Source: Marisa cornuarietis
Taxonomy: Eukaryota; Mollusca; Gastropoda; Architaenioglossa; Ampullariidae
Length of the DNA stretch: 64,000 nucleotides
Direction: 5' to 3'
NCBI GenBank assembly: GCA_004794655.1
Contig: SMMW01000001.1
Span: 20,842,501-20,906,500, forward strand
The notes under the pieces are model-generated. The model searched no databases, was not told the DNA's origin, and saw only the letters and a program-made list of their open reading frames with translations. Shown piece after piece: positions 25,904 through 64,000 of this stretch (its first letter is position 1; each line of letters begins with the position of its first letter). The position numbers were made by a program, and so were the translations under genes.

Positions 25904-33136
<7,233 letters not shown>

Positions 33137-45133: not shown

Positions 45134-48100
45134 ATTAAGACCCTCAAAGGAGCTTTGGCTTGATCTGCAGTTGTGCATTGGTAGATATGTTGTTCTTGGT
45201 GCAGTAACATATCTGGTTTTTACCCCTCATCTTGAAATTAAGTAAATGTCTGCTTTTCAAATACTTAATAAGACATGGATAATTCGGCATTTAGAATTGA
45301 CCACATGTATGCTGCACCCTGCAGCTTGACTCCATCATCACTCCAGAGCTGTTCAGTGGTGTCAGCAACTGCACAGCAACAGAACCTTTCTGGGATTTGT
45401 GCAAGAAGCGAACCTCAGGATCCAAAGCAAGAAAACATTCAGATGGGCAAAGACGTCAAGAATACTGAGAGCAGCAGAAAGCACAGTCTATGTTCAGGGA
45501 CAGAGCAAAGGTCTGGCAAGTTGAGTCCTGAAAAAAAGGGCAAAGGGCAGATAAATCAACCTGCTCCAGAGCTGAAACCAATTCATCATGGAAGAGCAAA
45601 AGAATTGCCAGATGTAGCTGACAGAGATGGTAAAAGTGAGGAATCTATGAAGAACTTTTCAGTGCTGAGCCTGGATCATCAGTACCACAGTTTGTCAGAC
45701 ACAGTGGAAAAGACTCATTCGCAGCCGGCTGGCAACCTGTCAGCAGTAGTACTTGATAATCAGAAAAAGCAAACTGATCTCAGCGTAGATTTATCTAGTG
45801 GGGAAAGAGTTTCATTGACGATGAGGAATAAAGCAACTTTTGAAGAAAATGGAGGAGGCTGTGATAATGATAAGGACAACTTACTGAACAATGAATCTAA
45901 TGAAACTGGTAATGAGAGTGATTTTAATGTCAGTGACAATGAATGTGAGGTGACTGATGAAGAACAAATCAGTAATGCTAAGAAACTGCATTCTAGCACT
46001 TTAACAGAGTGTCATGTTACATGGCTCAGGCATGTAGCTGAAGGTGAGAATAGTGAATCATGCAAACCAGTGGGTGAAATACAACAGCCAAAGAATGCAC
46101 CAGATAAAACAATGGAAGTCAGCACTTTAACAGATTCTGAAGACAAACCTGCAAAAGATTCCAATGAAACAAAAGAATTACACAAAGACTTAGTAAATGA
46201 GAAAGAGACTCAAGGCTCCACAAAAATGCAAAAGAAGACGTCTTTAGGAAAAAAAGGAAATGTCAGGACCTCTGCCAAAATGCTCAATACAAAATCATCA
46301 TCAAATCCAAAACAGGATATGCATTCAAATAATGAAGTAACAGTTGTGAATCCATCAGAAAAAAAAGGGGAGGATCCTGGAAAGTCAGATGACTTGACAA
46401 AAGCTGAAACTGTCACAGGTTCCAGAGGTTCAGAAGATATCTTGGACACTTCAGAAGCAAGACAGCCCATGGACTCAGCAAAGCCAGAAGAGATCGTGAA
46501 CTCTTTAAAAATAGTGAAGGATAAGGATTCTTCAAAATCCCAAAGAAAAGCTGAAGATTTTGCAACACCACAAAATGCCATACACTCATCAGAACTAGAA
46601 GTTTTAATTGATCTGCCCTATACAGGAGAGGATATGGAACTTTCAAAAACAGAAAAGAGTAACAATTCCCTCAAAAAAGGCAAAAGGCAGGAAACTTCAG
46701 ATGACATGGACCTCGTCAAAGACAGTGCCATTCAAGGTGAGGACAAGAAAAATAAAAAAGTGAGAGATTCTGCTGGCCTCACCAGCAAAACAAAAAAAAA
46801 GATAATGAACAGTGACAGTGTACATGAGTCACATGAATCATTGGATATTTCACAAAAAAGTGGCATTTCTGGGAAAGTCATCAAAGTTAGCCAGGTGATT
46901 TCCTCTCGGCAAAAAACCAACAAAAAAAGAAGTTGTGGGGAGGCAGGGCTGCGAATTCCTGTATTGGATGCTAATGATGAGATCAGCAAGGTTCCTAAAA
47001 CTGATCATACCCCAAGCCTCAAGAAGTCTCCGATAACCAAGAGAGGTGAACATTTTTTACTTGAGAGAGAAAGTGTGTGTGTGTATATATATATCATGAT
47101 ACTGTCATTAGTTAACAATAAATTTTGTGTATTTTAATCAAGAGTAGATAAAATAGTCAGTCACAAGGGTGTGAAGATGAGTCAAACTCAAGAACACTGT
47201 AACAGTATATGGCCTTAACTGCGAGAGCTGTTATTTACAGAATTCTCAGCTAAGCTTTTACTGAGTAGTTATGGAGAGTGTACTTTCTCAGTCACCATCT
47301 GGTATGGCAAGACCACTTTAAAGCAGAAAGTCTGACTTAACCGGGTAGTGCGTGCAGCTAGTAAAACCATTGGCTCTGACCTGCACTCTGCAGGCACAAT
47401 CTGTGCCCAGTGCAGTTTATGCAGGGTGCATAAGATTGTGTCTGGTGAATCATTCCCAACCAATAGTTTGGGGTTTTCTGTATCGCATGACCCCTGGGGT
47501 CAGGTACAAACATATCTGAACTAGATTATCCTGCCTGAGAAACAGTTATTACTAGCCCCTCTAATGTGGCGCAAGTTAGGACTGAATGTTGAACCTGTTA
47601 CCTTGAACTCAGTGTTCAGTGCAAGTGTTTGAGTGGGCATCCATGCATGTGTGTGTGCATACTCGTGTGTTTTGTTATGTCTGTGCATGCAGTTAATGGT
47701 GAAACTAAAATGGGTGAATAGTGTATAGTGTGTGCGAATGTGTTTGGAAGGAGTGTGTGGTGCATGTATGGGCATTGGGAAGGACTGTAGGTGAAAGGAG
47801 AGGGATTTTCGTTTGCATTTCACTGTGTTTTAGGTGTACATATAGTAGTTCATGTAGTGGTTGTCCAAGAGTGTTGGTGACTGGTATTTGTCGAGTAAGT
47901 GGTGGCCATCATTTAAGACATATTCCTCTTGCCATGTCACTTGGCAAATAAATGAATTTTCTTCTCCTCCTCCTCTTCTGATGACCCTATTCTTTTACTT
48001 TTTTTACTTTCTCCCATTCTCACACTTTTTGGTGTGTTTGTATTCGCTGTACTTGCCTTGCTTACTTATGCTGACTATACTTAGTGCTCCACTTGAATTT

Positions 48101-51100
48101 ATTATTTCTCTCAAATTAGTTGGAAAGCCCATGCTCATGCTGAAATATGTTGCATTTTTTTAATTTGCCCACCACAGGTGCTTCTGATACAACTCTTAAT
48201 AAAGCACAGTACTTGATACCCATGAAAGAACATGGTGAGTTTACTTTATCACCATTGCAAAATAATTTTAAAAAACAATAGTAATATGTCTGTCTTGAAG
48301 AGAACATTATCACACTTTTATGGGAACACATTCACCTTATAGTACAGGCCGATAAAAAACAGTATTAAAAATAGAGGTAATCATAAGTCAGGAATGTGGA
48401 AAATTAGGTAAATAGAATAAATGACAGAGAGCAGAATGATATATGATAATGTACAAAAAATATTAAGATATCAGAAATTACAGTCCTGATGTTGCATTTA
48501 TAAAGCTACCAACACTGAAACATTCTGTATCACCCCTATAATTTAGACTTGATTTTTCACAGTTTGGATAAAATGGCTTTCCAACAGTTTTCTTATCATA
48601 TCTCTGGTTAAATATTCGTTGCTAGCCTCTCAGTGAAAGATTTTTTACTATGGAAGCTTCTTTCTCATTTTTATAAAAGTATCAGAAAACTGTATAATTT
48701 TTAGACCAACATTAATGTGGGTTTTTTTTGGATGTTGTGTAATATGGTTTTATATATATGATGTATGTTTTGTGTGTGTGAGAGAGAGAAAAAAAAGAGA
48801 CCATGTGTGTTGTTGGGCCCCCCCCCCTGCCCGCACTTTAAGAATATTTATTAATATGGGAAAATATGGGAAAATGCATGATCTTTGTGTATTTTCACAG
48901 GCTGGCTTAGAGAGGTAGTATTTAGAGGTATCTTCACTGAGACTTCATCTGGCCAAAAGCCAGCTGATATCTACTATATTACACCAGAGAAGAGGAAACT
49001 TGTAAGTATTGTCATTTAACACTAACAATGTTTGTGTTAATCTGTTCAAACATGACTAGTCTAATAAGCTAGTACGATTAAATATACCATTTTCTGACTT
49101 TTATTCATAAATTAACAACTATACGCGAGTTGAAACTTGCCAGCTTTACATCGTAATCTTTATGTTCAATCTAGGATATGGCCTAGACTTGGTTTTCACC
49201 TCAAAACCACAGGGTTTTTTTTTTTTTTAAAGATGATTATGCTTTTTTTCTGCAAAAGAAAAAAGTGCAACACCCATTGAACAAAAGAATTAGAATGGTG
49301 CATTGGTAAGGCTAGAAACAACTACAAAAGCTATAAGAAGCTGATTTAAACAAACATTTTGTCTTAAACTATTGTCTTTTCAAAGATACTTAACTTACAA
49401 GAAAAGAAGCATGGACCAAAACCGACAGGTTTTTTTATAGTTGTCAATTGATCTAATTGTAGGTGCACAACTTGTATGTCATCCTTGCCACCATAACTTC
49501 CATGTGTAATGTTGTGATTATATGTGTATTAGTATTATTATTTATTGGTGGTGAGGTGTATGTTTTAAGAATATCAGCGTATAATGTTTTGGGAATAACC
49601 TATAAATCTGTATCCACAATATGTTGTTCCTGCACATTTACAAATACTGAATGGCCCACAAAACAGCAAAATAAACCCTGACTATTATTAATGCTACATT
49701 TTGCCCACTTTTCTGAAAATAATGTAGGTCAAGAGTTGTATACAAGAAAACTTTATTCACCCCTCCTTATGAAATAAGTGTAAAATAGTGATTTTTTATT
49801 GGATTTTTTTTTCTTTCACAGAGGTCGAAGGTCCAAGTTGCCCAGTATTGTAAGTATTTAGTTATATACTTGGTACTATTGTACTCAGTTTTTTTTTTAA
49901 TTCATTAATTATGCATGTATATAATTCGCATGTGTGTGTGTGTGTGTGAACATAAATTGTGGACCTAGTGTCTTTTTTTTCCTTTCTGGGAGATTATATA
50001 CTTTTAGTTTTGTGTTATCAGAAGATTTTTATCATGAAGAAATTTATAATTATAATGCAAACTTTCATCATTATAATTATTTAACAAAGTGCAGTTGCTA
50101 CTTCATGCTTTAGGCTTAATCCATGATGCCATATATGTTGGGTTCCAGTGAGAGATCGCCCTTCAGTCCCACTAACAGAGGAGAACTTTACCTTTCTGCG
50201 TGTGCCACTATTTGAGGAGCCCTGGGAATTCGTTCGAAATGCAGGGACACCAAGATCTGTGCAGCCAGTTTCAAGATCTTATAAAGACAAAACTCCTGCT
50301 CGAACAACTTCAAAGCATGATGATTCCCGCAAACAACAATCAAAGCCCTCAGATCACTTTTCAGATTCATCCATGACCTCATCATCATCAGACATTGAAT
50401 GTGAGAATAAAAACAATAAAGAATGGAGCATCATTAGTGGGCCTGGCACTGACTCAAAGAAGGCCAAAGTTGTTACAAGGACCAGAGGTCGAGGCAGGGG
50501 CTGGTTGAGAGGAAGCTGGGAGGTGAGAGAGGAGCCCCATGAGATGGAGGTGTTGATCCAGGACCTGCCTCCCCCAGAGGTCATTATTGATCGAGCAGAT
50601 GATGGGGAAGGTTTGAGTCTAGGGGATGAGTCCCAGGAAGGTTCACAGACTGAAATGCAGATGCAGGGAAATCCTGACAAAAATGTCAGTGAGCGTCCAT
50701 TTGAGCCAGTGCACTTTGATCATGCTCCTACCCATTTGCAGCATCCACCTTCTCGCATCATGAAGGCAACTGCAAGAAAAAGCACCATGCCGCATATTAA
50801 GTTCAAGTTTCCATCCAGGTAGTGTAGTATTTAAATGAACTGCAACATGTAAACAATTTTATTAGCTTTTTTATGCATTTAGTGACAAAAATTCTACTAT
50901 GCCTTCACATAGGTAAAGACTCTTTGTATTTTATTATTATTATCATTAACTTGTCCTTCAGGATTTGGAGATTTTGGTTTGTGGGGTCTGGATCTGAAGA
51001 CAGGAATGACCAGATTTTTTTATGTTAATTATCAGTCCAGGGGCATTTCTTAACAGGATCTGGCTTATGCCTTCCATTTTGAATGCAGATGTTTGGAAAC

Positions 51101-54100
51101 CTATGAGAGACTAGAAAAATGTGACATTTTTAAGGATTGCCATGACATCTGAAGGGTCATTTTTGAGAGGGCTAGATAAAGTAGGACTAAAACATCATCT
51201 GAGATACCATCATCATTTTACTAGGCTGTTTTGCATGCTTTCTGAAGCCAGTTTTGCCTTGGTTGTTTATCTGATAATAACATCCATGTTTAAATGCATC
51301 AAGACTTATGTATGTGAATTTTATTTTTTGCTTCATTCTCTATGTTCCATTAAGCAGGCATGGTAATCTTACTCATTTTATGTACATGTGTGTGTGTGTG
51401 TGTGTTTATTACTAGAGAATACTCTTTATTAATCCAGGCTTTCAGCTTAATTTCACAAGGAAGTGGTGGGGTGGGGGGGTAAAAATATGGTGAGACAAAA
51501 TTTACTATGTATCAGATATTTTTGTGACAATAAAATAAAAAAGGAAATAATTTTCTTGTATCAGACATCACTAGTGTTTAATGAAGATCTTTGTGTGTGT
51601 GTGAGAGAGAGAGAGAAAATGTTTGTAGGTTTTGTTAAGTACATTATGTGCTTTCTCAACAGGGCAACATGCCTACTTATCATAGTGCAGGTACTACATT
51701 TCTTAGCCTGTCTTCACTTGCAGCAAATCGTGTTCTATGAGAGAGCGCAACTTATCCCGTGGACAGTTGTGCACCAACAGTTGCCCTGGGCTTAATGGGC
51801 AGCCTCCAGAACTGCAGTGTTGTGTCTGTATGTGTCTCTTTCATCACCAGTGTGTGAACACGGAAAAGTCTTCCCAAGGTGCAGCAGATCAATTCAGATG
51901 TTTGGTAAGCTTGCAAATATTTTTGTAGTTTTTGATCCTGGAGTATCTATTTTACCCTTATGTGTAAACTACATAAAGCAATAAAAGGTTTCAGGAAATG
52001 TTTCAAATCCTTATCAGCATCTTTAAAGGTCTAGTTCACTTTTTTTTTTTAAATGACTGGGGTGAGCTCTGCACTGGCTTCTGTAATTGGCCTTGCAGAT
52101 GAGTAGCGTTGTATTGCACCAGAATTCAAATGAACAACTTCCCTTTCCTCTCAGTTTTTAAGATAAAAACTTGTGAATATCACCATGCACAGAAAGAGGT
52201 CAAACACCATGAGCTACCTGGACATAATTAAGTTGTGAAGCCCACAGCCAATGGGAAAGCTGAAAGCATACATTAACTAGGCTATCCATGACATCCCAAG
52301 TCTGACCACCTTCTGTGCCTTTGCAGGCAAATATCTCAAGAAGGGAGCTGATTCCCTTATATTTGAATAATACTGTCCTGTACAGAATGCTGCCCAGTCA
52401 TTTGTAAAAAGTTCTGGACTGTAAAAGATCTGTAAAGTTGTTTTGAAGTGTTTATATTTGTTATGTGGTAAATGGGACAGGAAAATCCCCCACAATATCT
52501 CGACTTAATTTACCATGGGTCCACAGTAAGAGACCACTTAATTAAAAAGATCTTGTGTACAAGCTTTTAGAGGGCACTTATTTAAGGCAGATGGACTTAA
52601 TAATAATAAAATAAACATGTGATTTGCATAGTGCATGATAACACTTACGAAAAGCATGCTCTCAGCAGCTATGACAAAAACAAGACATAGACAGTATATG
52701 AAGAATAGAAGGATGAACTAGAGTACTGACAAGTAAGAAAATACAATCAAAGACGACAAAAAAGGAATTGGGTAACAAACAGTTATGACAGGGAGTTTTA
52801 TGAATCTGCAGAGGAAGATTGGCAGGGGACTAGTCAATAGATCCCTCTCAAAAAGTGAGAGAAATGGTTAGAAAATGGACTTGCATGAAGTGGACTGTTA
52901 TTAGGAGCAATGCTTATAGAAAAGATGTGTTTTTTGTGCGCATTTAAATGATTCATTGTGGTGGATGTGGAAAATAGGTAAAGAGCTAGGACGACCCCCC
53001 ATGCATGTGGCAGATATCATATAGGGCAGAAAGGCCAGGTAATGTCACCTTCCTTGACCAGACTCAGGAGGCTGTCGTGACAGTTGCATCTGAAGGCTGG
53101 AGAGAGAGAAAACATCCAAGGTCATTTTATCCCTTGTAGAACAGTGAGAGAATTAGTCTTTTTTACTCCACCTTGCTACCTGGAGGTGGGTATAACAGTG
53201 TAGTCAGTGGAACAAGCAGTCTTTACAGAAGCCATGTAACATCCCGGGACTGGGACAGTGGTTGATATCTGTGTTGCCAAGGGAGTGGTCATCACTCTCT
53301 GACATGGTTGGTGGACTAAGTGGGGAAGTGACAGTAGAGAGTCAGATAGGGCACACTACACGTGAAGAGTCATTGTCGTACATTTGTTTAAGATATGAAA
53401 TATTAACAATTGTTCCTGTTGAATTATTTATATTTCAGCGCTGCATTAATATGCCCACTCCTCCACCTTCTGTTAGCCCACCATCCAAATCTGCAGACAC
53501 ATCAGCATCAAGACATGAGCAAGTGCCAGCTCCACCTGTTCCCATCCCACTATCCCCTGCAGTGTTGAGCATGCCAGCACCACAGCTCACCGTCATACAC
53601 CAGCCTTCCAGTGTCATACCCCTCTTCCTGCCTCTTGTGCCTGGACAAATAGCTTGCCAGCAGTTGCCAGTGCAAAATGCAAGCGCAACACATTCGGGGC
53701 AATTGGCTCAGCCTGCGGATGGCAGCAACTCTGATGCTATCCAGGTTCTACGTGGCATGGCAGGGAAGCATGACCAACCAGTCAGCACTTCACAGCCAAT
53801 GCCCAGCATGCCAAGCCCACCAAGCCTGTTGATGAGAGGGGCTGTGCCTCCTCCACTCACTCCATCCAGCAAAGTCAATCCTACCCGAGGGATCGTCACA
53901 GCTTTCCGACCTCCACCACGTTTGGTGGCTGCTCCCGGGGTAGTGGCATCCACGGCAACACCAGCAGTAACTGTTAGTGGCAGCCTTTCTCAAGAAGCTG
54001 CTTCATCTTCTACTGTAACAGCACCGCTGTCAAGAAGTATGTCAATAGTTTCTTCACCTGCTGAGAAAAATTCTATACCGCTGCCAATTCCAGCTCCATC

Positions 54101-57100
54101 AGCAAGTACTTTGATGGTTCCTTCACCAGCAGAAAAAACTTCTGAGGGACCAGTAAATCCTGTCCCATCAGTGAGTGGTTTGTCAGTTCCATCACCTACA
54201 CAAAAACATGTAGTGAGTCTGCTGAGTCCTGCGCTCACAAGTACCTTGGCATTTGCTACACGTGCAGACAAAAATCCTTTAGTTATGCCGTCTTTTGCCC
54301 CTTCTGAGAGTACACCAACAATTTCTTCACCTGCAGGGGAAAACTCATTACCGCACCCAGTTCCAACTCCATCGAGAACAACAGCAGCTTCTTTACCTTT
54401 TGGAAAAAATTCCTTATCTCAACCAAGTCCTGCTCAGCTGCTAACCTTGCCAGCATCCATATTGAGGCGTGTGAATGTCAACCAGCCATTAGCGCTAAAA
54501 ATCAACAACAGACACATTGTTGTACCACCATACTGCCTTCTCAAATCCAAAGAGGCTGTCAAGGTGAGAATGCACTTATCAGTATCGGATCTGCATCATA
54601 AAAATTAGGTTATGTGTAGAAATGTGGGAGGTATTTTGGTGCTGCCAGCCATGGATGGTTCAGAAGGAGTAAAGTAAAAGCTAAGATGCAATGGATGATA
54701 TCTCAAACAGAAAAGATTGTCTCTGTCCACGCACATATAAATATATAAATAAAAGCGAACACTGTGAGAATAATGATGTAAGAAAATTTAAGTTTTTACA
54801 ATAAAAAATGTGCCTTCATAATGCAGATATGTTGAAAATTTCTTGAAGCTCAGTCTTTGCATTTTCTCTTGTAGTGTTTAGCAGTTTATTGGAAATTGAG
54901 AGTATCGTTTCTGCATGACTGTCTTCTATGCAGTTAGTGATTGTGTCTTTTAATAAAATTCTGCTGTGTTTTGAGTCTTGGTAAGTTTCGTAATGATGGG
55001 GTCATGTCTACAGGTAGTTCTTCCTCCAGGCACATTTTCCATGCCACCCAACTCTGAAACAACGTTCCCATTGACTGTGTCTAACAACACTCTTACTACA
55101 TCATCACCTGTAACAATGACAACCATCAACCCTGCGGCCACGGCTGAACAAGGCACACAACTTGAAGCCAAGGCCAGTGACGAACCTTCCACATCATATG
55201 CACAAGCTACGCTGGATGTACCCTCTACATCAGATGTCCCTATTATATCAGTTCTTGGATCTGATATTCCTTCAACATCAGATGCATGTGCTTCATTAGA
55301 TGTATCTTCTAAATCGGATGACGATTCCCTAAGCAGAAGCAAAAGTTCAAAGCATATGTCATCAGGGAAGTGTCAGCATAGAGCAACGTCACACTCACAA
55401 ATCAATCCCTCTCAGTGCACGATGCACAGGTTGTTTGGAGGATTTGATGCCATGTTGCAAATCTTCCGCTTCCTTCAGATTCCAGATCTTATGCAGTAAG
55501 TATTTTTAACTCATATTTCTGGCTATCTGGCTAGATGCAACCAGTTCAGAGTACTATATTTGCATAAAAGGGATTGATTTTATCCTAGTTTTAGGAGTAA
55601 AAATTCTCAAACTGTCACCCCAAGCTTTGGCCAAAATTTGCTTTAAAATGTTTTGCAGGGATGGTTTGCTGCTGTCCATTCTTTCTCTTCACAATTAATT
55701 GACACAAATTATGAATGCTTCAAAGGTAATTTTTGAATCCTGCGTTGTGAATATGCCTAGGATTTCATTAGGCTAAACTTGTGACTCACTTTTATGAAGC
55801 TATTCCGTTTTTGTTTTTTGTTTGTTTGTTTTTTTTTTTGCTTAATTCAATGTGAACCATTCACTGTTGTTACAGTGCCAGCCAAGTATGTTCTACCTGG
55901 CTGCAGATTGCGCGACAGCGTACCTTGGTAAAGAAAAGAATCCTAAGCTTTTCTTCTTTGTGGTAGCAGAATTAAGCACATTTGAAATGCTTTAATATTG
56001 AAAAGGATTTTTTTAATTTTCCTTTTCTCCACTTTGTGAAAATCTAAATAGACAGTTGGCTTTATTCCCCTTGACCTAAAGTGCAGACTGAACATAGGTA
56101 AACTGTCTGCAGAATTTAGTTTTCTTCGTGTGTTACATGCTATTTTATTGTTACAGTGGCAGTCTGTCAATCTCAAAGACTTTGTAGTGGCTGACTGGGA
56201 AAAGGCTTTAAAGTTTATGAGGAGTTGTGGAACCCAGAAGCTGGTGAGGTTTCAAACACAAGTACACTAACAGTATGTCTTCTTTCAGTTGTCTTCCTCT
56301 CCCATTTCTTCTCACTTCCACCAGATTTAGTAACCATTATTGTGGCAGAAGTTTGTGGAAAGTTAGTGTCACATGACTGAGGATTACTTTTCCTTTTCTT
56401 CACCATCTAAGAGCTTCTGTTTTTTCTGTGGTGCCATTTTTCTAGACATATCATATTCATCAGAGTTAGCAATGTGTCTATGGTTTCTCTCTTTTGCTTT
56501 TTCTGCCTTGCAGCTCTTGAAGGGTGTGAAACACAAGGTTAGTCAGAGCCAGGCTTGGCAAAGCCTGCTGGAGAACTTGGACTTGCTAGTGGGCTTACGG
56601 CACATAGAATTTGGCCTGGTCCCAGCTGCTGTTGTACATGCTGTTGTGGAGAAGCTTACTCAGCTAGAAGTCTTCAAAGCAGAGCATATCACTCTCTTCA
56701 CAGATATTTACAGTGAACAAATGTGGTTAGTGCATCTACACACAATGTTTACTTAGGGCTGTCATCACAGCTTTTGATTAAATGCTTAAAAGTATAATTT
56801 GGATTATGTGAATTTTTATTGTAGTTAATTTAGAAGGATTCCTTCAGTACAGTGAACACCATTTTTTCAAATAAAAAATTTTCTTTTTAAATAACTCTTT
56901 TAAAAATAAACATGCGTAAAGTTCGCACCAAAATTCATGCCGCCCACAACTAGCACATTTTTTTGTTTATGTTTGTATCTGAGCAGACTTCCCGAGTATA
57001 ATTGCCAACTGGGAGTAATAAAGTTGGTCATTGTTATTGACATGCAACATTCAATATTTTAGAATTATTACAATTTGAGGAATCTTCCATTTCATTTGTT

Positions 57101-60100
57101 TTACCTCTTGGAAAACGAGCTGGATAAATGCATCAAGCAGGGGTCACTAAAAGAGTCTTCAAACATGTTACACAGTCCAGATTTTTTTTTTTTAACAAGT
57201 CTTACTACATCTGCAGGAACTAGCAAGTAACACGACCTTTTATCAAAGCTGCTTACTATCCTACCATGAACGTTGATCTACTGGACTGCCAGCAGACGAT
57301 TTTTTTCAATTAAGTCGGAGAGCCGCGAGAACGAGGCTCGGAAAAAAAGCAGCTTCCGGTAGCGAACGATGACAACAATGGCAGCAGTAAAGGAATATAA
57401 ACAGCCAGGAAGTGGTAACTCCTGCAGCATGGAAGAATGCCATTGTGCAAGTTACAAATGTTTTGGTGTAAGTTTTTTTCGCCTTCCGTGGCCAGGTATA
57501 TCAAAAGAGCAAGAAGAGTGGCGAGCGGCTCTCATTCATGCTAAAGGCCAGCGGATTCGGTCCGATTTCCGTTTCCGGAGACGCAGCACGACGATGGAAT
57601 CTACGTCCATCATCGTGCTGCGTCTCCGGAAACGGAAATTGGATTGAATCCCGCTAGCCGAGACTAGCGGTTCAGAACTTCGCAAGAGGCTAAGCGTTGG
57701 TCTCGGCATTTCGTCAGCAGTCCAGTAGATCAACGTTCATGATCCTACTTATGCTAGAAACACTTGGCATGTATTTTCTGATTTTTTTAAGCACCTAATT
57801 AAAATATATGCTCAGGACAACACCCACCAAACTGGATGTGGGCAAGTTTGGTAGTCTGGTTCACCTACAGGAGCTACGGCTGCGTGGAGTGTTGGGGCTG
57901 GTGCTGCCCACATTTACCTTCAACGGCAGTTTATCAGAACTAGCACATCTGAAGCATCTTCGCTCATTGGTAGGATCATTGTTAATGTTAACGGAAAGTG
58001 AGCAGGGGTATACAGGAATAAACATGCATTCACAATTGTTTCTGTTTTATTAACATGAGGGTAGATATGTAGTTGAATTGTTAGAGCACAAGGTTCTGAA
58101 GCTAGAAGCACCCACTAGCCATTTTTAAACCTTTGTTGACCCGAGTTATTGAATTATTACCTGATCCCCATAAAGGGTTGCGAAGGAAAAGGTGGCAAGG
58201 GATAGGAAATGGGCACCAACCTCCCAAAAAGCTAGTGCCAAAATAAGAGCAGTCTCTTTCTATCTCACTCTACAACAGTTGAATGGTTACAGGGCTACTC
58301 TTACTTTATTATCATGAAGCCAACTCTTTTTGTGTTTTATCATAACGTTAACTTTTCTAATGTCTTATTATCATGAAGTTCTCTTCTTGTGTCTTATTTT
58401 CTTTAGTCTCTGACATCCTTGCATGCTATGCGGGACAGCGACTTTAATTTCTTGGCTGACATGAAGCATTTGAGAGAGCTTGAATTGGGCAACTGTCTCA
58501 ACTGGACATCTCAGGTTGGTGCATCCAGAAAATCTTAATAAATAATAGTAATAAAAGCCATTAAAGCCAATGAAACAAAAATTCACATTTAATTGTCACA
58601 TTGTTTTGTCTGCAACATTCATAAACACACCAAATAAAGATTAAGGGTTTTCCCTCTGGATCATAGCTTTTCTCCAGAAAGATCACAGGTTAGTCGTCCT
58701 AAAGATAAATAGGTCTAAAGTGCAGTTGCTTGCTCGCAATTGGAGTCCTCGGTTGTGCCAGCTGCCCTGTGTTCAGCTGTGGCTTGGGTGAAAGAACTTA
58801 TTTGCAATGATTCTTTGTCTTGGATTGTGAGCCTGTATCTGCTGGTGTGCTGTGGTCCTGTTAGATTGGCACCTTTAAGTTGGTTGTCACATTATCGATG
58901 TTGGACTTTTGGAGCATGGTACAGACTTCAACAGGCAAAGATGTCAGAGGCACAAGGGCATATACTTTAGATCTCAGATGCCTGGTTGTAAATCCTTTAG
59001 AAAATTATTTAATAACTGCAGCAGCCTGTGTCATTCTGTTCAGGACACCCTCACCCCTTCATAGTTTGTTTCTTTTTTGTTAACCTGGTTTGCTCATTCG
59101 TTTGCCCCCGAGGGCCCAGCATCTCATGCCAGGATATTATTTTCCAACAAACTCTCCCCCATCCCACTCTCTCAAACTATGCCACCTCCCTCTTCAACTT
59201 CATACCATTATTTGTGGCAGCAGAGACATTGTCTTCATTTGAGTCCCTGGCCATGCTGCCATCCCAGACAATGTTCGAACTGAAAAGGCTGCCAAGGCCT
59301 CTTGCCAATCTGGTCAATTGCAGTCACTGATGTCATCAGACTGTAAGTCTGTCTTTACAGCCCATGTTCAGTCCCTGCGATAGTGCCTTCCATCGTAACG
59401 TTACCTTGTCGAATATTATGTCCACAGTGGGCTGGCGTTCGACTTTTTTTTTTTTTTCTTTCTTTTTTCAGATATCTTTCCACGCACGTTGCTTCTCTTG
59501 CACTATTGGGACCGATCTCGACAGCACAACAGGCCACCTTGTGACTTTCACAGGTGGTTTGTATGTACTTCCCTTCACCTGATCTTTATTCTCCTATGGT
59601 CATGTTATCTGGTAAAGTCAAAGAAGAAATATAATTTTGAGAGTAAATTCTCTTTCTTCAAGACTAGTGTATTGGCCCTGCGTTTGCCTTATATCTGTAA
59701 GAGTGCAATTCCTCACCTAAGTTTTTGGTTTTATTTACAGCCTCTGGTTTAATGATGGCCTTTTAGGCCACAAAATTCATTTTAACACATTACTTACCCT
59801 TTCATAATGTCCTTTCTCCTTATGTTGGTTTATTGTTAGTGATGTTATCATATCATCTGGGAGTCTTGTTTTTCATATTTTCAATGTAATATAACGCATG
59901 ATAAAACCTTAGTTTCTGGCACAGCGTTAAGCACAGACATCAAACTACAAACCATCCACATACCAATGAATATTCCTTCTCTCAGCTATATTTGCTTTGG
60001 TTCCAGTAGCTAGTTTTTTGCTATGCATGATCATTGTTGATCCAGACCTCAAGAGACACGGCAGAAAGTTTATGCAGAAACAAATATCCATAATCCCTTC

Positions 60101-63100
60101 TCAGGGTTTATACACAAGGTGGTTGGCCTGGTTGTGAATACATGGGCACTGAGCCCTGACGGGTACTTTGTCATGTAAAACTTTTACCCACTGTCTTCAA
60201 AAATATTAAGCATTTATAAAATAATTTCACGAAATGGGAAGGTGATGCTCAGCAGCATGTAAAAAGATGATGCTGATGGTTTCCTCCAGGTACTTCAGTT
60301 TCCTTCACTCTGTGCTGCCTGTTTGTGTGAAGTGGGTATGAGTGTTCACATACGACGGTGCATTTTATACCTGCCCTTAAAAGGTAGTGTCTGTGTGTAT
60401 GTAAAGCGCTTTGAGCCCATCTTTGTGCCAGGGATAGGTACTACATCAGTACGATGATGATAAGCCCGCCCCCTTCCCTCTTGCTACTTTACCCATCTTT
60501 CTCGCAGAATCACTATATTTTTCTGTTCCTGTTACTTGATGCCTTTTGTTTTCTGTTTCGTCAGTACTGTCGTTTTCTTTCGTCCCTTTGTTCTGTGTCT
60601 ACTTAGTCCACGTCTCTTCCTCGTTTTAAGCGCTAAGAGCATGCTCTCTATGAGTGTGAATATGCGATATAAAAATCTTCACTATTATTATTATTATTAT
60701 TATTATAAGGAGAAAACCAAATAATTCATCCAAAATCTGTGGAAAAACAAAGGCATTTAATGCGTAATTTGGGGGTGAGGGTGGGGGAAGAGAACTTTGA
60801 AACTTAGAGAATTATGGGATGTACATCATTGTTGCCTCGTCAGGTGTTATGTAGTCTTGTACAACAGCCTGTTTCCTGTTCTCTTCAGACATACTTGCTG
60901 TTAGGTGAATTGCGAGAGTTGCGGCACCTTCGACTAGAATGTGGTGGGGAGATACCCGACGTAGGTCTGGGCGATGCTTTGTCGTATCTAACAAAGTAAG
61001 TTATTCATTGAAAGCGGCCTCATCTTTTTAGCCACATCCTATTCTGGTAAAAGTTGAATCACCTTTGAACTACACTTTATGTTTTTTTAAAAGTGAAAAG
61101 AATTAACTCTGCGAGTAAGATAGTTTCAGGATATTTTTTAAGAGGTTTTTTTTTTTTGAGGTTTTCTTCCACACCATTCTGACTGGACAAGCTGTTTGTC
61201 TGTGCAGACTTGAGCGTTTGGAGCTGATTCTGTTTGTGATCCCAGCCTCTCTCAACAAAGCTTTGTCAGAACTCACCTGTTTGCACACATTGGCCCTATG
61301 GCCCGACACTGGCTGTGGCATCTTGGTAAGCAACAATGTTATGGAGAGCTTGGGCTTAAAGACCAACCTGAATAGTTTGCGGTTTTTTACGATATCGGTA
61401 GACGTAGGCGATATAAAGCTAACCTGTAAATTTCAGCCTCCAAAACCCATCCATTAATTATCCGCTAGCAAAGTACGCGATTCGCACCTGAGATCAACTA
61501 CGTCATGCTGGTACACCATTCACAACATTGCCAGCAGTCAACACCAAACAGAGGGAAAGAATGAGTAACGGTTTGGATTATTTGGACATTGAAAGTCAGC
61601 ATTTCTGGTGCTAAAGTAGCAGTTTTTCAGAATCACAACACAAGCAGACTTTCAGTGTCCAAATAATCCCAAATCTCGCTCATTCTCTCTCTCTTTGTTT
61701 GGTGTTGACTGCTGGCAATGTTGTGAATGGGGTACTAGTGTGACTTAACAGATTGCAGGTGCGAATTGCATACTTTGCTAGCGGATAATCAATTATCAGA
61801 TCGGTTTTGAAGGCTGAAATTTACAGGTTACTTTTATATTCCCTATATCTACCGATGTCTGCAAAAGACGCAAACCATTCAGGTTGGTCTTTAAGCACTC
61901 AGAATGTGTGCATAAACATGAAGTAACTGTGTGCAAGTGGGACAGCAAGTGTAAGAATGTATATGCACACTCGTTTGTAATGTGGTCCTCTTGCATGTGA
62001 CTGGATAAAATATGTTGTCTATTTGTGTAGAAAATGAAATGAAATGAAATGTGCAGCTGAGAAGTTTTTACTGGTTTTCTTTGTTCAAAAATGCGCTGGT
62101 GAGGCCACGCTTGACGTCAATGTGCTGAACAGCTACCGCCTAGTTTCTAACTTGTCTTTTCTCTCTAAGATCATATAGAAAATAGTTTTATGTACAGCTC
62201 TGGGCCTACTTACAAGAGCACCATCTTATCCCACAAGCTCAGTCGGCATATAGACCTTTCCACAGCACTGAGACCACTCTTATTAAGGTAACGACAGACA
62301 TTATCTGCCCTTGACGGTGGTGATGTTTCTCTGTTAACTCTACTCGACCTATCTGCTGCATTCGACACTATAGACCACTCTCTGCTCCTTCATAGACTCC
62401 ACACCCTCTATGGAATTTCTGGACCTGCCCTCTCATGGTTCAACTCCTATCTCACTGATAGGACCCAGACTGTGTTTGTTGACGGTCAAACATCTCACCC
62501 TGCTCCACTTCTCTGTGGTGTTCCCCAAGGCTCAGTACTTGGCCCAGTTCTGCTTATCCTGTACACTAAACCACTTTCATCATGTATCCAGTCTCACCAG
62601 GTTTCTCATCAATCCTATGCTGATGACACGCAGCTTTACTGTTCCACTCCACCGGCTGAGTCTCACTCTGCTATTAGCTCTCTAGAAGCTTGTATTAGCG
62701 ATGTCAAGGGCTGGATGGTAAAAAACAAGCTTAAACTAAACGATGATAAAACGGAAGTCCTCTTGTGCTACAGAAGAAGACATCAACCTTCGCTCGTCAG
62801 TCTGCCCAATCACATCAAGGTGGGCAACAGCAACATCACCTTCACGTCATCCGTTAGGAATCTGGGATTTATTGTCACTGCAGACATGACCCTTGATAAA
62901 TATGTTACAGCTGTCTGTCAGTCTGCCTATTATGATAAACATATTACAGCTGTCTGTCAGTCTGCCTGTTATGATAAACATATTACAGCTGTCTGTCAGT
63001 CTGCTTATTATGAGCTCCATAAGATCAGCACCATCCATCACTTTCTCGCACTACCAACACTCTTGTCTGTGCGTTTGTTCTTTCTCAACTTGACTACTGC

Positions 63101-64000
63101 AACTCCTTGCTGGCAGGCTGCCCCTCATCCCTCATTCAGAGACTCCAGAAGGTACAGAACTCCGCTGCATGTCTGGCGCCACGAAACGAGACCATGCCAC
63201 TCCTCTCATTTTCCACACTGGCTACCCATCCCTTCTCGCATTCAGTACAAACTGTGCTGTTTTAATTTCTTTGCTGGCTCCTGCCCTATTTCTGAACTTC
63301 TCTTCCGTTATGTTCTGGCCAGACAACTACGCTCTTCGTCTGATGACCGTATCCTAACTGTTCCTGTCACCAGAACAACATATGGTCACAGGATTTTTGG
63401 CTACTGTGCAGCAAAACAATAGAACTCTCTCCCTTTCCATATCCGCCACCTTCCTACAATTGAATCCTTTAAATCTGCACTGAGAACTTACCTCTTCCTT
63501 GAGCATTACTCCTAACACAGTCCACAATGCTAGTCCTTCTTACGCCCTCTTCCTACTTCTCTACCCATCTTTCTCTGCAGAATCACTATATTCTCTGTTC
63601 CTGTTACTTGGTACCTTTTTGTGTTTTCTTTGTTTTCTGTTTGTCATCAGTACTTTTGTTTATTCTTCCGTCCCTCGTTTTCTATCCATTTAGTCCATGT
63701 CTCTTCCCCGTTTTAAGCGCTAATAGCATGCTCTTTATGTGTGAATATGTGCTATAAAAATCTTCATTTATTTATTTTATTATTATTATTATTAAAATGA
63801 CCGATTGACATTTTTCATAGATCCTTGCATTGTAATGTATGTGTGTTAATGCAGCCAGCAACAGTCAACTCGAACGCTGTAGCCGCTGTCCTCAATGTCA
63901 AGCAGTTGCAAGTCTTGGAGTGGGGTTTAATGGTCAAAGAGTCCTCTGCACACTCCCAGTTACTGCTGCAGCAGACTGAGGAGAACAGCACCATACCAGT
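45134..64000 (+). CDS. MBD - PHD-like - F-box - LRR protein (runs off the window)
   Basis: Coding starts at ATG 45275, which has an in-frame TAA six bases before it. Exons: 45275-47045, 48178-48234, 48901-49001, 49822-49849, 50149-50818, 51724-51904, 53439-54563, 55014-55495, 55876-55927, 56157-56243, 56514-56725, 57816-57969, 58407-58514, 60889-60995, 61208-61325, 63855 onward. All junctions are GT-AG and in phase, giving about 1,800 residues so far. Order: disordered Ser/Lys/Glu-rich region (1-600); methyl-CpG-binding domain (about 606-675); RG-rich acidic linker; PHD-like finger (892-938); Pro/Ser spacer; F-box (about 1448-1495); leucine-rich repeats (from about 1500). Inferred role: nuclear SCF (Skp1-cullin-F-box) substrate receptor directed to methylated DNA. 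I recognise no named vertebrate counterpart; an insect MBD/F-box protein such as Drosophila six-banded might be related, but I am not sure. Confidence 0.88.
45275..47045 (+). CDS. MBD/F-box gene: long N-terminal exon
   Basis: 590 codons in one exon, rich in Ser, Lys, Glu, Asp and Asn with almost no aromatic residues, so predicted disordered. It contains acidic runs (NVSDNECEVTDEEQ) and basic runs near the end (KTKKKIMN, SRQKTNKKRS). It ends KR|GTGAAC in phase 1. CpG is very rare (about five in 960 bp from 46021). An upstream non-coding exon seems to begin at 45134 after TTTTTTTCCAG. Confidence 0.85.
47260..47970 (+). mobile_element. Decayed LINE 3' region in intron
   Basis: The plus strand, with stops, gives YGECTFSVTIWYGKTTLKQK, NRVVRAASKTIGSDLHSAGT, VHKIVSGES, then a shifted GVRYKHI-stop-TRLSCLRNSYY. 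These match the C-terminus of Rex/L2-like LINEs (FS.T.WYG, NR.VR.ASKIIG, LPSGRRYR...RLKNSF). A GT-rich 3' UTR ends near GGCAAATAAATGAATTTTC. Confidence 0.7.
48178..48234 (+). CDS. MBD/F-box gene: 57 nt linker exon
   Basis: Encodes GASDTTLNKAQYLIPMKEHG with both ends split in phase 1; the final Gly is completed by the next exon. It is the lead-in to the MBD. Confidence 0.8.
48901..49001 (+). CDS. MBD/F-box gene: MBD exon 1
   Basis: Encodes GWLREVVFRGIFTETSSGQK and PADIYYITPEKRKL, the MBD core. By alignment with MeCP2, R618 matches R111 and D632 matches D121. The loop between them is about four residues longer than in MeCP2. Donor CTT|GTAAGT, phase 0. Confidence 0.9.
49822..49849 (+). CDS. MBD/F-box gene: 28 nt microexon in the MBD
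   Basis: Only 28 nt between TTTCTTTCACAG and T|GTAAGT, encoding RSKVQVAQY. Its first Arg (R644) aligns with the second DNA-contacting arginine of MeCP2 (R133, FRSKVEL). Confidence 0.87.
50149..50818 (+). CDS. MBD/F-box gene: MBD end and RG-rich acidic linker
   Basis: Begins by completing a Leu codon (YLRDRPSVPL), then EENFTFLRVPLFEEPWEFVR. A Ser-rich run and a short TRTRGRGRGWLRG box follow, then an acidic stretch (DDGEGLSLGDE). Ends KFKFPS + AG|GTAGTG, phase 2. Confidence 0.87.
51724..51904 (+). CDS. MBD/F-box gene: PHD-like zinc finger exon
   Basis: Encodes CTNSCPGLNGQPPELQC followed by CVCMCLFHHQCVN and FRCL. With the RC at the start of the next exon this gives C892, C896, C908/C911, H916 or H917, C919, C935 and C938, a Cys4-His-Cys3-like order as in PHD fingers. 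Spacing is not canonical, so the fold is inferred. Donor TTG|GTAAGC. Confidence 0.83.
52590..53130 (-). mobile_element. Reverse-oriented retroposon end in intron
   Basis: At 52598-52700 the sequence (TAATAATAATAAAATAAAC...AAAAGCATGCTCTCAGC...AAGACATAGAC) is the reverse complement of the 3' end of the 62 kb LINE (GTCTCTTCC...GCGCTAATAGCATGC...TTATTATT). The rest, to about 53130, is repetitive-looking but unassigned. Confidence 0.5.
53439..54563 (+). CDS. MBD/F-box gene: Pro/Ser-rich exon
   Basis: Phase 0 on both sides. The first two residues (RC) complete the zinc finger. About 330 residues of Pro/Ser/Thr/Val-rich sequence follow, with a loose internal repeat (SSPAEKNS.PLP.PAPS, four or five times from about 54045 to 54400). 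A short ordered piece follows, LALKINNRHIVVPPYCLL.SKEAVK, running into the next exon. Confidence 0.83.
55014..55495 (+). CDS. MBD/F-box gene: spacer and start of F-box
   Basis: Begins VVLPPGTFSMPP, continuing the ordered piece. A Ser/Thr-rich repeat follows (LDVPSTSDVP, DIPSTSDA, LDVSSKSDD). The exon ends MHRLFGGFDAMLQIFRFLQI + PDLM, the first helix of an F-box. Donor CA|GTAAGT. Confidence 0.84.
55876..55927 (+). CDS. MBD/F-box gene: 52 nt F-box core exon
   Basis: Completes HASQVCSTWLQIARQRTL, which carries the F-box signature of a Cys/Ser-x-W helix (VCSTW...A). Phase 2 in, phase 0 out. Together with the previous exon it predicts Skp1 binding. Confidence 0.84.
56157..56243 (+). CDS. MBD/F-box gene: F-box end / LRR cap
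   Basis: Encodes WQSVNLKDFVVADWEKALKF and ends CGTQKL. The LW..VNLKDF transition is usual between an F-box and the first leucine-rich repeat. Confidence 0.82.
56514..56725 (+). CDS. MBD/F-box gene: LRR exon A
   Basis: Encodes WQSLLENLDLLVGLRHIEFG and VEKLTQLEVFKAEHITLFTD, two Leu-rich repeats. Donor TG|GTTAGT, phase 2. Confidence 0.82.
57265..57741 (+). mobile_element. Small inverted-repeat DNA transposon with THAP-like fragment
   Basis: Perfect 25 bp terminal inverted repeats (CATGAACGTTGATCTACTGG...) lie at 57265-57289 and 57717-57741. They are flanked by the direct repeat ATCCTAC on both sides (57258-57264 and 57742-57748), a 7 bp target duplication. Inside, 57369-57647 encodes a short protein whose first part (SCSMEEC...GVSFFRLP...EEWRAAL) resembles the start of a THAP zinc finger, the DNA-binding domain of P-element-type transposases. 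A near-perfect 46 bp hairpin (57553-57598 and 57606-57651) has replaced the rest. It is a non-autonomous deletion derivative in an intron of the MBD/F-box gene. Confidence 0.9.
57816..57969 (+). CDS. MBD/F-box gene: LRR exon B
   Basis: Encodes VGKFGSLVHLQELRLRGVLG and LSELAHLKHLRSL. Acceptor ATGCTCAG, donor TTG|GTAGGA. Confidence 0.83.
58065..58262 (+). mobile_element. Degenerate tRNA-derived SINE in intron
   Basis: GTAGTTGAATTGTTAGAGCAC is a decayed tRNA head. Further on, CCTGATCCCCATAAAGGGTT and GGAAAAGGTGGCAAGGGATAGG match the body of the SINE at 5.5 kb. Confidence 0.5.
58407..58514 (+). CDS. MBD/F-box gene: LRR exon C
   Basis: 36 codons, phase 0 on both sides, with MKHLRELELGNCLNW. Donor CAG|GTTGGT. 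Confidence 0.83.
58515..60235. other. Intron; no recognised feature
   Basis: Intron of the MBD/F-box gene. Open frames around 59028-59330 and 59489-59752 lack matching splice phases. I see no gene or known repeat in it. Confidence 0.5.
60236..60450 (+). mobile_element. Old SINE-like fragment
   Basis: GGTTTCCTCCAGGTACTTCAG resembles the central box of the 3.0 kb SINE. Further on, AAAGCGCTTTGAGCCC and GGGATAGGTACTACATCAGT resemble a common retroposon 3' end. Confidence 0.45.
60470..60715 (+). mobile_element. 5'-truncated 3' end of the 62 kb LINE family
   Basis: Closely follows the last about 230 bp of the 62 kb LINE: TTTCTC.CAGAATCACTATAT, then TAGTCCACGTCTCTTCCTCG, GCGCTAAGAGCATGCTCT and a (TTA)n tail. 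A solo end left by truncated insertion. Confidence 0.8.
60889..60995 (+). CDS. MBD/F-box gene: LRR exon D
   Basis: Encodes LGELRELRHLRLECGGEIPD and GDALSYLT, ending AA|GTAAGT. The next exon supplies A to give Lys. Confidence 0.83.
61208..61325 (+). CDS. MBD/F-box gene: LRR exon E
   Basis: Encodes LERLELILFVIPASLNKALS and ELTCLHTLALWPDTGCGIL. The donor TTG|GTAAGC is phase 0, matching the final exon. Read-through would add about 43 codons to a stop at 61455-61457, an alternative C-terminus discussed separately. Confidence 0.8.
61230..61990. repeat. Large inverted duplication including part of an LRR exon
   Basis: 61356-61605 is repeated in reverse complement at about 61645-61900 with a spacer of about 40 bp. 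Shared blocks include CTTAAAGACCAACCTGAAT, ACCTGTAAATTTCAGCC, TTATCCGCTAGCAAAGTA and TTGCCAGCAGTCAACACCAA. Weaker similarity continues outward into exon E (LTCLHTLAL versus LSHLHTVTS). The RNA would fold into a long hairpin. Confidence 0.85.
62085..63795 (+). mobile_element. LINE reverse transcriptase copy with 3' end
   Basis: A CR1/Jockey-type reverse transcriptase. Early part with stops (LNSYRLVSNLSFLSKII), then an open stretch to 63422 with LLDLSAAFDTIDHSLLL (first catalytic Asp), CGVPQGSVLGPVLL, SYADDTQLY (catalytic Asp pair intact), SDVKGWMVKNKLKLNDDKTE, and a partly shifted C-terminus. A 3' UTR with GCGCTAATAGCATGCTC and a (TTA)n tail ends near 63795. The 5' half is missing. It lies in the last visible intron, same strand as the host gene. 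Confidence 0.92.
62895..63011 (+). repeat. Three tandem 39 bp units inside the LINE frame
   Basis: GATAAA..TATTACAGCTGTCTG..., exactly 39 bp each at 62895-62933, 62934-62972 and 62973-63011, with three or fewer differences between neighbours. Each encodes DKHITAVCQSAYY or a close variant, so the frame is kept. Confidence 0.95.
63855..64000 (+). CDS. MBD/F-box gene: LRR exon F, cut by window end
   Basis: Acceptor TTAATGCAG, phase 0. Encodes PATVNSNAVAAVLNVKQLQV and LEWGLMVKES, then runs off the end with no stop or donor seen. Confidence 0.8.

Follow-up and report, generated by a model that had tools for sequence, protein, structure and literature searches.

What might a single protein do that carries both a methyl-CpG-binding domain (MBD) and an F-box followed by leucine-rich repeats (LRRs)? 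The question is raised by a gene at one end of a 64,000-nucleotide stretch of the genome of the gastropod Marisa cornuarietis (contig SMMW01000001.1, positions 20,842,501 to 20,906,500; the window hereafter). A preliminary description of the stretch, made from its letters, had proposed that an MBD, a Cys/His finger, an F-box and LRRs stand in this order in one protein. The order holds: the spliced reading frame is free of stops, and the same arrangement is conserved across molluscs, in a brachiopod and in a nemertean, with the MBD (PF01429) and F-box models listed in one protein for 26 of 29 relatives. Between the MBD and the finger, the protein also carries ARKST, a copy of part of the histone H3 tail that the preliminary description did not mention. 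With moderate confidence, we read this MBD-ARKST-PHD-F-box-LRR protein as a likely adaptor through which SKP1 and a cullin ubiquitin ligase would reach methylated CpG DNA.

The part of the gene visible in the window consists of 16 coding exons (Table 1), with borders placed according to splice sites and reading phase. Every one of the 15 introns is of the GT-AG type (15 GT donors and 15 AG acceptors), phase is consistent over the 16 exons, as the preliminary description had it, and the spliced frame runs for 1,799 codons with no stop, compared to 94 and 120 stops in the shifted frames. If exon 14 ends one base later, its donor is not GT and the last two exons contain stops, none of which appear with the GT donor one base before. 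An in-frame stop lies directly upstream of the first ATG (45275). The gene spans 18.7 kb here with its 15 introns and runs beyond position 64000, with the final LRR turns and the true stop codon outside the window.

For the window species, the analysis drew on genomic sequence, in which an MBD-PHD gene and a neighbouring F-box-LRR gene might have been joined by mistake. The annotation of the best protein match, Pomacea canaliculata C0Q70_14348 (P0001; 94% identity over the F-box-LRR part, 852 of 973 aligned residues overall), would agree with this, as it starts downstream of the MBD. Its gene model begins inside exon 5, jumps to exon 7 and has no MBD, ARKST or PHD finger; its C-terminal end diverges from those of the relatives. 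Against this, the 26 relatives that carry the MBD and the F-box in one protein represent three classes of molluscs and two further phyla, which makes a wrong join highly improbable. Moreover, five relatives (P0010, P0012, P0017, P0020 and P0025) encode an MBD-to-LRR protein on contigs of 4,206–7,421 bases, of which 3,618–7,155 are coding. These contigs are too short for introns such as those seen here and are thus presumably spliced transcripts. The check proposed with the preliminary description, that MBD and F-box exons share transcripts, therefore comes out in favour of a single gene for the relatives, but not yet for the window species.

The 29 relatives found in protein searches are from gastropods (Pomacea, Batillaria, Babylonia, Littorina, Nucella, Gigantopelta, Patella and Lottia), bivalves (Solemya, scallops, mussels, oysters, Sinanodonta, Mercenaria, Ruditapes and Mya), cephalopods (Octopus), the brachiopod Lingula and the nemertean Tubulanus, with six further entries. 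Their database names are uncharacterized or hypothetical protein, mucin-4-like, serine-rich adhesin for platelets, or automatic ones such as MBD domain-containing protein, in keeping with the earlier guess of an under-described invertebrate family. The three relatives not listed with both domains are P0001 and P0028, which are short gene models, and P0034, which begins within the MBD. P0028, from Mytilus edulis, has neither the MBD core nor ARKST (other residues occupy its place), and its gene model looks broken, perhaps by a frame error. The searches required shared five-residue words and a length band and partly scored only candidates sharing most words; they revealed no homologues beyond Mollusca, Brachiopoda and Nemertea (the phylum of P0034 aside), which does not establish absence elsewhere, annelids included. 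Six entries at the search tail (P0013, P0029–P0032 and P0035) were dropped as unrelated LRR matches, P0013 being the one inspected.

In a tree of the F-box-LRR region, built from the window protein and 28 of the 29 relatives (P0028 excluded, P0001 included without a label; rooted for drawing only), cephalopods (support 100/100) and gastropods (99/98) form groups, as do, weakly, bivalves (81/80). Lingula, Tubulanus and the long-branched P0034 lie together across one branch from the molluscs (88/82). With these groups and one row per named species, the tree fits a single-copy, vertically inherited gene. The five short-contig proteins were counted as molluscan by their position in this tree and make up 5 of the 25 molluscan rows used below.

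The MBD scores above the Pfam cut-off, as expected from the preliminary description, and is matched in 11 of 11 relatives of set A1. In domains of this type, two arginines recognise CpG and one tyrosine gives methyl selectivity (PMC5240623). In this family, both arginines, the tyrosine and two nearby members of the contact set, D and S, are present in 27 of 27 MBDs, ranging from the window protein to that of Tubulanus (P0001, P0028 and P0034, which have no full MBD, are outside this count). The residues fit the methyl-CpG specificity proposed earlier, and methyl-CpG reading by the MBD of this family is likely.

Part of the evidence weighs against this assignment. The solved domain closest to the family profile is the TAM domain of BAZ2B (E 1.9e-8), ahead of MBD2 (2.2e-7), its match to the profile reaches past the domain core, and the BAZ2B TAM has no preference for methylated DNA (PMC10783490). 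The tripeptide GRP, which is found in AT hooks, comes after the MBD in 18 of the 25 molluscan linkers (that of the window protein is not one of them), much as AT hooks follow the TAM of BAZ2 proteins (PMC10783490). The domain might thus be of TAM type and BAZ2 ancestry and bind DNA or RNA without reading methylation. This is quite unlikely, in our view, because BAZ2B has E, A and Q at the positions aligned with the conserved D, Y and S of the family, and the window's single MBD sequence matches MBD2 (1.2e-4) better than BAZ2B (0.0061). The ancestry of the domain is left open, with BAZ2B best by profile and MBD2 best by the window sequence.

A further feature lies in the linker between the MBD and the PHD finger. 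ARKST is identical to residues 7–11 of histone H3 and is thus an exact five-residue copy of the surroundings of lysine 9 (H3K9). Each of the 25 molluscan proteins whose sequence includes the linker has it exactly once (the window protein, P0002–P0012, P0014–P0023 and P0025–P0027), and these proteins span gastropods, bivalves and cephalopods; P0001 and P0028, both without ARKST as annotated, were dropped before this count. The likeness to H3 extends upstream: the residue preceding ARKST is T in 22 of 25 rows (V in three), and the one three positions before its A is K in 24 (R in one), matching H3 T6 and K4. The linkers are otherwise divergent and vary in length from 119 to 308 residues, with 91–277 residues between the MBD region and ARKST and 22–38 between ARKST and the PHD finger. 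Outside ARKST, only four alignment columns are conserved in at least 23 of 25 rows, namely the K at –3, the P and I of a second short motif, PEVIIDRA, and one L. When the linkers were shuffled 300 times, at most three rows had any 5-mer in common; as the rows are related, this measures conservation rather than independent origins. The second motif is itself conserved across molluscs, its counterpart in many bivalves being PEVVIERD.

None of the three non-molluscan relatives (Lingula, Tubulanus and P0034) contains ARKST. Since these three sit across one branch from the molluscs, a single gain toward the molluscs is the simplest account, though ARKST may instead have been lost.

The minimal H3 site of the methyltransferase G9a is TARKSTG, with an RK/ARK consensus (PMC8541646), and an ARK-type site in ATF7IP is methylated by G9a/GLP and read by MPP8 (PMC6172828), a phenomenon termed histone mimicry (PMC10611923). 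By its core sequence, ARKST is a good candidate substrate of G9a. In the structural model of the Patella protein, the motif has predicted local distance difference test (pLDDT) scores of 30–35, i.e. it is predicted to be disordered, so that an ARK(S/T) sequence stands in a stretch of predicted disorder, as looked for in H3K9 mimics. Alternatively, ARKST could belong to a nuclear localisation signal, or be simply a site for a basophilic kinase. Basic residues directly precede it in most rows, and R-K-S is a plausible Aurora/PKA-type site. One would not, however, expect a localisation signal to keep A, S and T unchanged in 25 of 25 rows, the three non-molluscan relatives have basic patches between the MBD and the finger without ARKST, and the K at –3 and the T at –1 are also in the H3 register. 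On balance, this alternative to a histone mimic seems unlikely.

The Cys/His finger, earlier described as PHD-like, is most probably a PHD finger of C4HC3 type, judging by its ligands and profile matches. Its eight ligands are invariant in 20 of 20 rows (20 of the 29 extracted fingers were used for this alignment). The window finger alone scores 12.8 against the Pfam PHD cut-off of 24, and 17 of the 20 members match this family at E values up to 5, the best being 3.6e-5. Compared with the Protein Data Bank (PDB), the profile of the 20 sequences matches the PHD fingers of PHF2 (3.1e-4), PHF23 (0.0018) and others, with RING fingers weaker (from 0.048). An AlphaFold2 prediction of exon 6 alone (the last cysteine lies outside it) with 22 relatives had a pLDDT of 49.9, and the finger in a full-length orthologue model is also below 50; as these structures are unusable, the PHD call depends on ligands and profiles. 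PHD fingers that read trimethylated H3 lysine 4 have a tryptophan before (F/Y)-H. PHF2 has W there, but this residue is not kept in the family, with L in 25 and M in four of the 29 fingers.

Further downstream, the conserved KINN block has no PDB match below E 0.56 and no Pfam family below 0.05; one of 14 members shows a sub-threshold match to MazE (AbrB-type, E 0.14). In the model of P0008, the block (residues 661–727) is predicted with pLDDTs of 73–79 up to residue 710 and 54–68 beyond. A new fold is not claimed for it, given that the structural comparison with VIA-align barely covered this part of the model.

The F-box and LRRs named in the preliminary description are both present. The two Pfam F-box models score above their cut-offs, and an F-box is also matched in 11 of 11 relatives of set A1; LRR_14, with 23.2 bits in the window protein, falls short of its cut-off of 40. 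In an orthologue, the F-box-LRR part is modelled as one FBXL-like fold that aligns with FBXL2 over 322 residues and with FBXL17 over 320; these two, in chains taken from SKP1 complexes, also lead the VIA-align matches. In sequence, the F-box is closer to SKP2 (E 1.6e-7) and FBXL2 (1.2e-5) than to KDM2B (4.7e-4) or KDM2A (0.0048).

In the chief rival to our reading, the F-box-LRR part would bind SKP1 and a partner complex and bring that complex to methylated DNA with no ligase activity, as in the cases of FBXL19 with Mediator and KDM2B with PRC1.1. FBXL19 pulled down SKP1 with no CUL1 or RBX1 detected, and its F-box is needed for binding of CDK-Mediator (PMC5997449), a result that makes a non-degradative role conceivable here. 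In addition, the KDM2B chain of the PRC1.1 core structure (5jh5_A) is among the Foldseek matches, at rank 42. On the other side, the F-box is nearer to SKP2 and FBXL2 than to KDM2 proteins and the best structural matches are FBXL2 and FBXL17, both of which are compatible with a scaffold as well. We consider the scaffold possible but less probable than the ligase adaptor.

Table 1. Features of the gene in the window (all positions count from the first letter of the window).
Feature	Position	Strand	Residues	Remarks
Visible part of the gene	45275..64000	+		16 coding exons, open at window end
Exons 1-6	45275-47045, 48178-48234, 48901-49001, 49822-49849, 50149-50818, 51724-51904	+		
Exons 7-11	53439-54563, 55014-55495, 55876-55927, 56157-56243, 56514-56725	+		
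Exons 12-16	57816-57969, 58407-58514, 60889-60995, 61208-61325, 63855-64000	+		last exon open
DHMYA N-terminal motif (DHxYA)	45299..45313	+		9 of the 25 molluscan rows have it, three from clams and the others from gastropods
MBD	48228..50204	+	608-671	exons 2-5; Pfam MBD 34.7 bits (cut-off 21)
PEVIIDRA	50574..50597	+		second short linker motif; P in 23 and I in 25 of 25 linker rows
KATARKST	50763..50786	+	858-865	H3 tail-like (H3 K4-x-T6-A7-R8-K9-S10-T11)
ARKST	50772-50786	+	861-865	K863 in place of H3K9
PHD finger	51770..53444	+	892-938	C4HC3; exon 6 and start of exon 7
KINN block	54435..55085	+	1269-1335	conserved, predicted beta-rich (QLLTLP...PLALKINN...GLKVFLPP)
F-box	55422..56171	+	1448-1494	F-box-like 37.7 bits (cut-off 24.3); F-box 26.1 (20.5)
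Leucine-rich repeats	56172..63998	+	1495-1799	cut by window end

The mechanism that we infer for the ligase adaptor has five steps. The MBD would tether the protein to methylated CpG, which in gastropods is found mainly in gene bodies (PMC11050768), and the F-box would bind SKP1 and, if the protein acts as a ligase, CUL1 through SKP1; these two steps are the firmest. The LRR face might then select a chromatin-bound substrate for ubiquitination. In molluscs, as a prediction from sequence, a G9a/GLP-type enzyme would methylate K863 and a reader of H3K9 methylation would dock there, so that the ligase would be held where DNA methylation meets the H3K9 pathway. Candidate readers are MPP8 (as in ATF7IP), HP1 and the tandem Tudor of UHRF1. 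Finally, phosphorylation at S864 and T865 might act as a switch, a role that S10 has in H3. In its most specific form, which we put forward tentatively, the protein would be a molluscan methyl-CpG-guided ubiquitin ligase with its own H3K9 decoy, in which methylated ARKST recruits HP1, MPP8 or UHRF1 or competes for them, and the F-box-LRR part marks chromatin proteins for removal.

The gene itself lies in CpG-depleted DNA. Its exons have an observed-to-expected CpG ratio of 0.29, and the ratio is 0.21–0.49 (in 4-kb steps) from about 36 kb to the window end, compared to 0.61–0.99 in the first 36 kb. The window thus looks split into a methylated (36000–64000) and an unmethylated (first 36 kb) compartment. 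CpG depletion is the usual footprint of germline gene-body methylation, and the stretch of the gene matches the expectation for a germline-methylated gene. As a side remark, the protein may bind its own gene in this setting.

Several other elements are found in the window. The last visible intron contains a reverse-transcriptase open reading frame of the long interspersed nuclear element (LINE) type (62292–63422, + strand; Pfam RVT_1, E 1.5e-22), inside which a short tandem repeat was spotted by eye. Inverted repeats, also seen by eye, occur in two introns (57545–57660 and about 61370–61850) and are perhaps short DNA transposons resembling miniature inverted-repeat transposable elements. A second LINE-type element at 30326–32053 (+) encodes an endonuclease and a reverse transcriptase (RVT_1 3.4e-18, Exo_endo_phos_2 8.8e-9), and a cysteine-rich open reading frame at 27370–27834 (+) has a weak match to Galaxin_repeat (E 0.0011, below cut-off).

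Methylation in invertebrates is concentrated on gene bodies, and how the mark is read there is an open question. The conserved protein described here is a further reader candidate with a putative ubiquitin-ligase module, which may connect DNA methylation to the tagging of proteins; it would offer a mechanism and a testable gene for oysters, mussels, snails and octopus. If the proposed mechanism is true, DNA methylation, H3K9 methylation and ubiquitination would meet physically in one polypeptide, which would be the methylated-DNA counterpart of KDM2 and FBXL19. ARKST does not change across gastropods, bivalves and cephalopods and makes an unusually clear candidate for a mimic of H3K9, for which the three non-molluscan relatives without it provide a built-in comparison.

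The systems most similar in plan are KDM2A/KDM2B and FBXL19, with the order CXXC-PHD-F-box-LRR. Like them, the snail protein combines a CpG-reading domain, a zinc finger, an F-box and LRRs in one chromatin protein that likely binds SKP1. Unlike their CXXC, which reads unmethylated CpG, its MBD has the residues for methyl-CpG, and it adds ARKST and the KINN block. The preliminary description regarded the protein as a copy of this plan. The resemblance of plan stands, but kinship does not: a search of both halves of the window protein, with E values of up to 1 admitted, finds no CXXC family, and no JmjC, DDT or bromodomain is listed by Pfam in this protein or in the relatives of set A1. Descent from KDM2 in sequence was set aside, the F-box being weaker to KDM2B and KDM2A than to SKP2 and FBXL2. 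The plan therefore looks convergent rather than copied, and the protein is better seen as a functional look-alike of KDM2/FBXL19 than as a member of that group.

Other known proteins share parts of the architecture. The readers MBD1/2/3 and MBD4/MeCP2 share the MBD match and the R-D-Y-R-S contact set; we know of none with an F-box or LRRs. Inventories of MBD proteins name MBD2 and MBD2/3 for gastropods (PMC11050768) and, for annelids, MBD1/2/3 together with MBD4 (PMC8330077, PMC11292947); F-box has 0 hits in each of the three. BAZ2A/BAZ2B (TIP5; TAM-AT hook-DDT-PHD-bromodomain) also have an MBD-type domain followed by a PHD finger, with AT hooks comparable to the GRP of the 18 linkers, but the DDT and bromodomain have no counterpart found in the snail protein and the BAZ2B TAM is without the D, Y and S. 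The substrate receptors FBXL2, FBXL17 and SKP2 of SKP1–CUL1–F-box ligases share the F-box and the LRR fold and, to our knowledge, have no MBD, PHD finger or histone mimic. H3K9 mimics such as LIG1, ATF7IP and WIZ likewise carry an ARK motif in agreement with the consensus of G9a/GLP (PMC6172828, PMC8541646); here, in contrast, the candidate mimic is ARKST in all 25 proteins, extended to TARKST in 22 of them, and lies inside an F-box protein. No description of an invertebrate or molluscan protein with an MBD and an F-box (along with a PHD finger and LRRs) was found in the literature searched, which left most subscription journals outside. What appears to be new is the use of an MBD in a CpG-directed F-box-LRR chromatin protein, its pairing with a PHD finger and the KINN block, and a built-in candidate mimic of H3K9.
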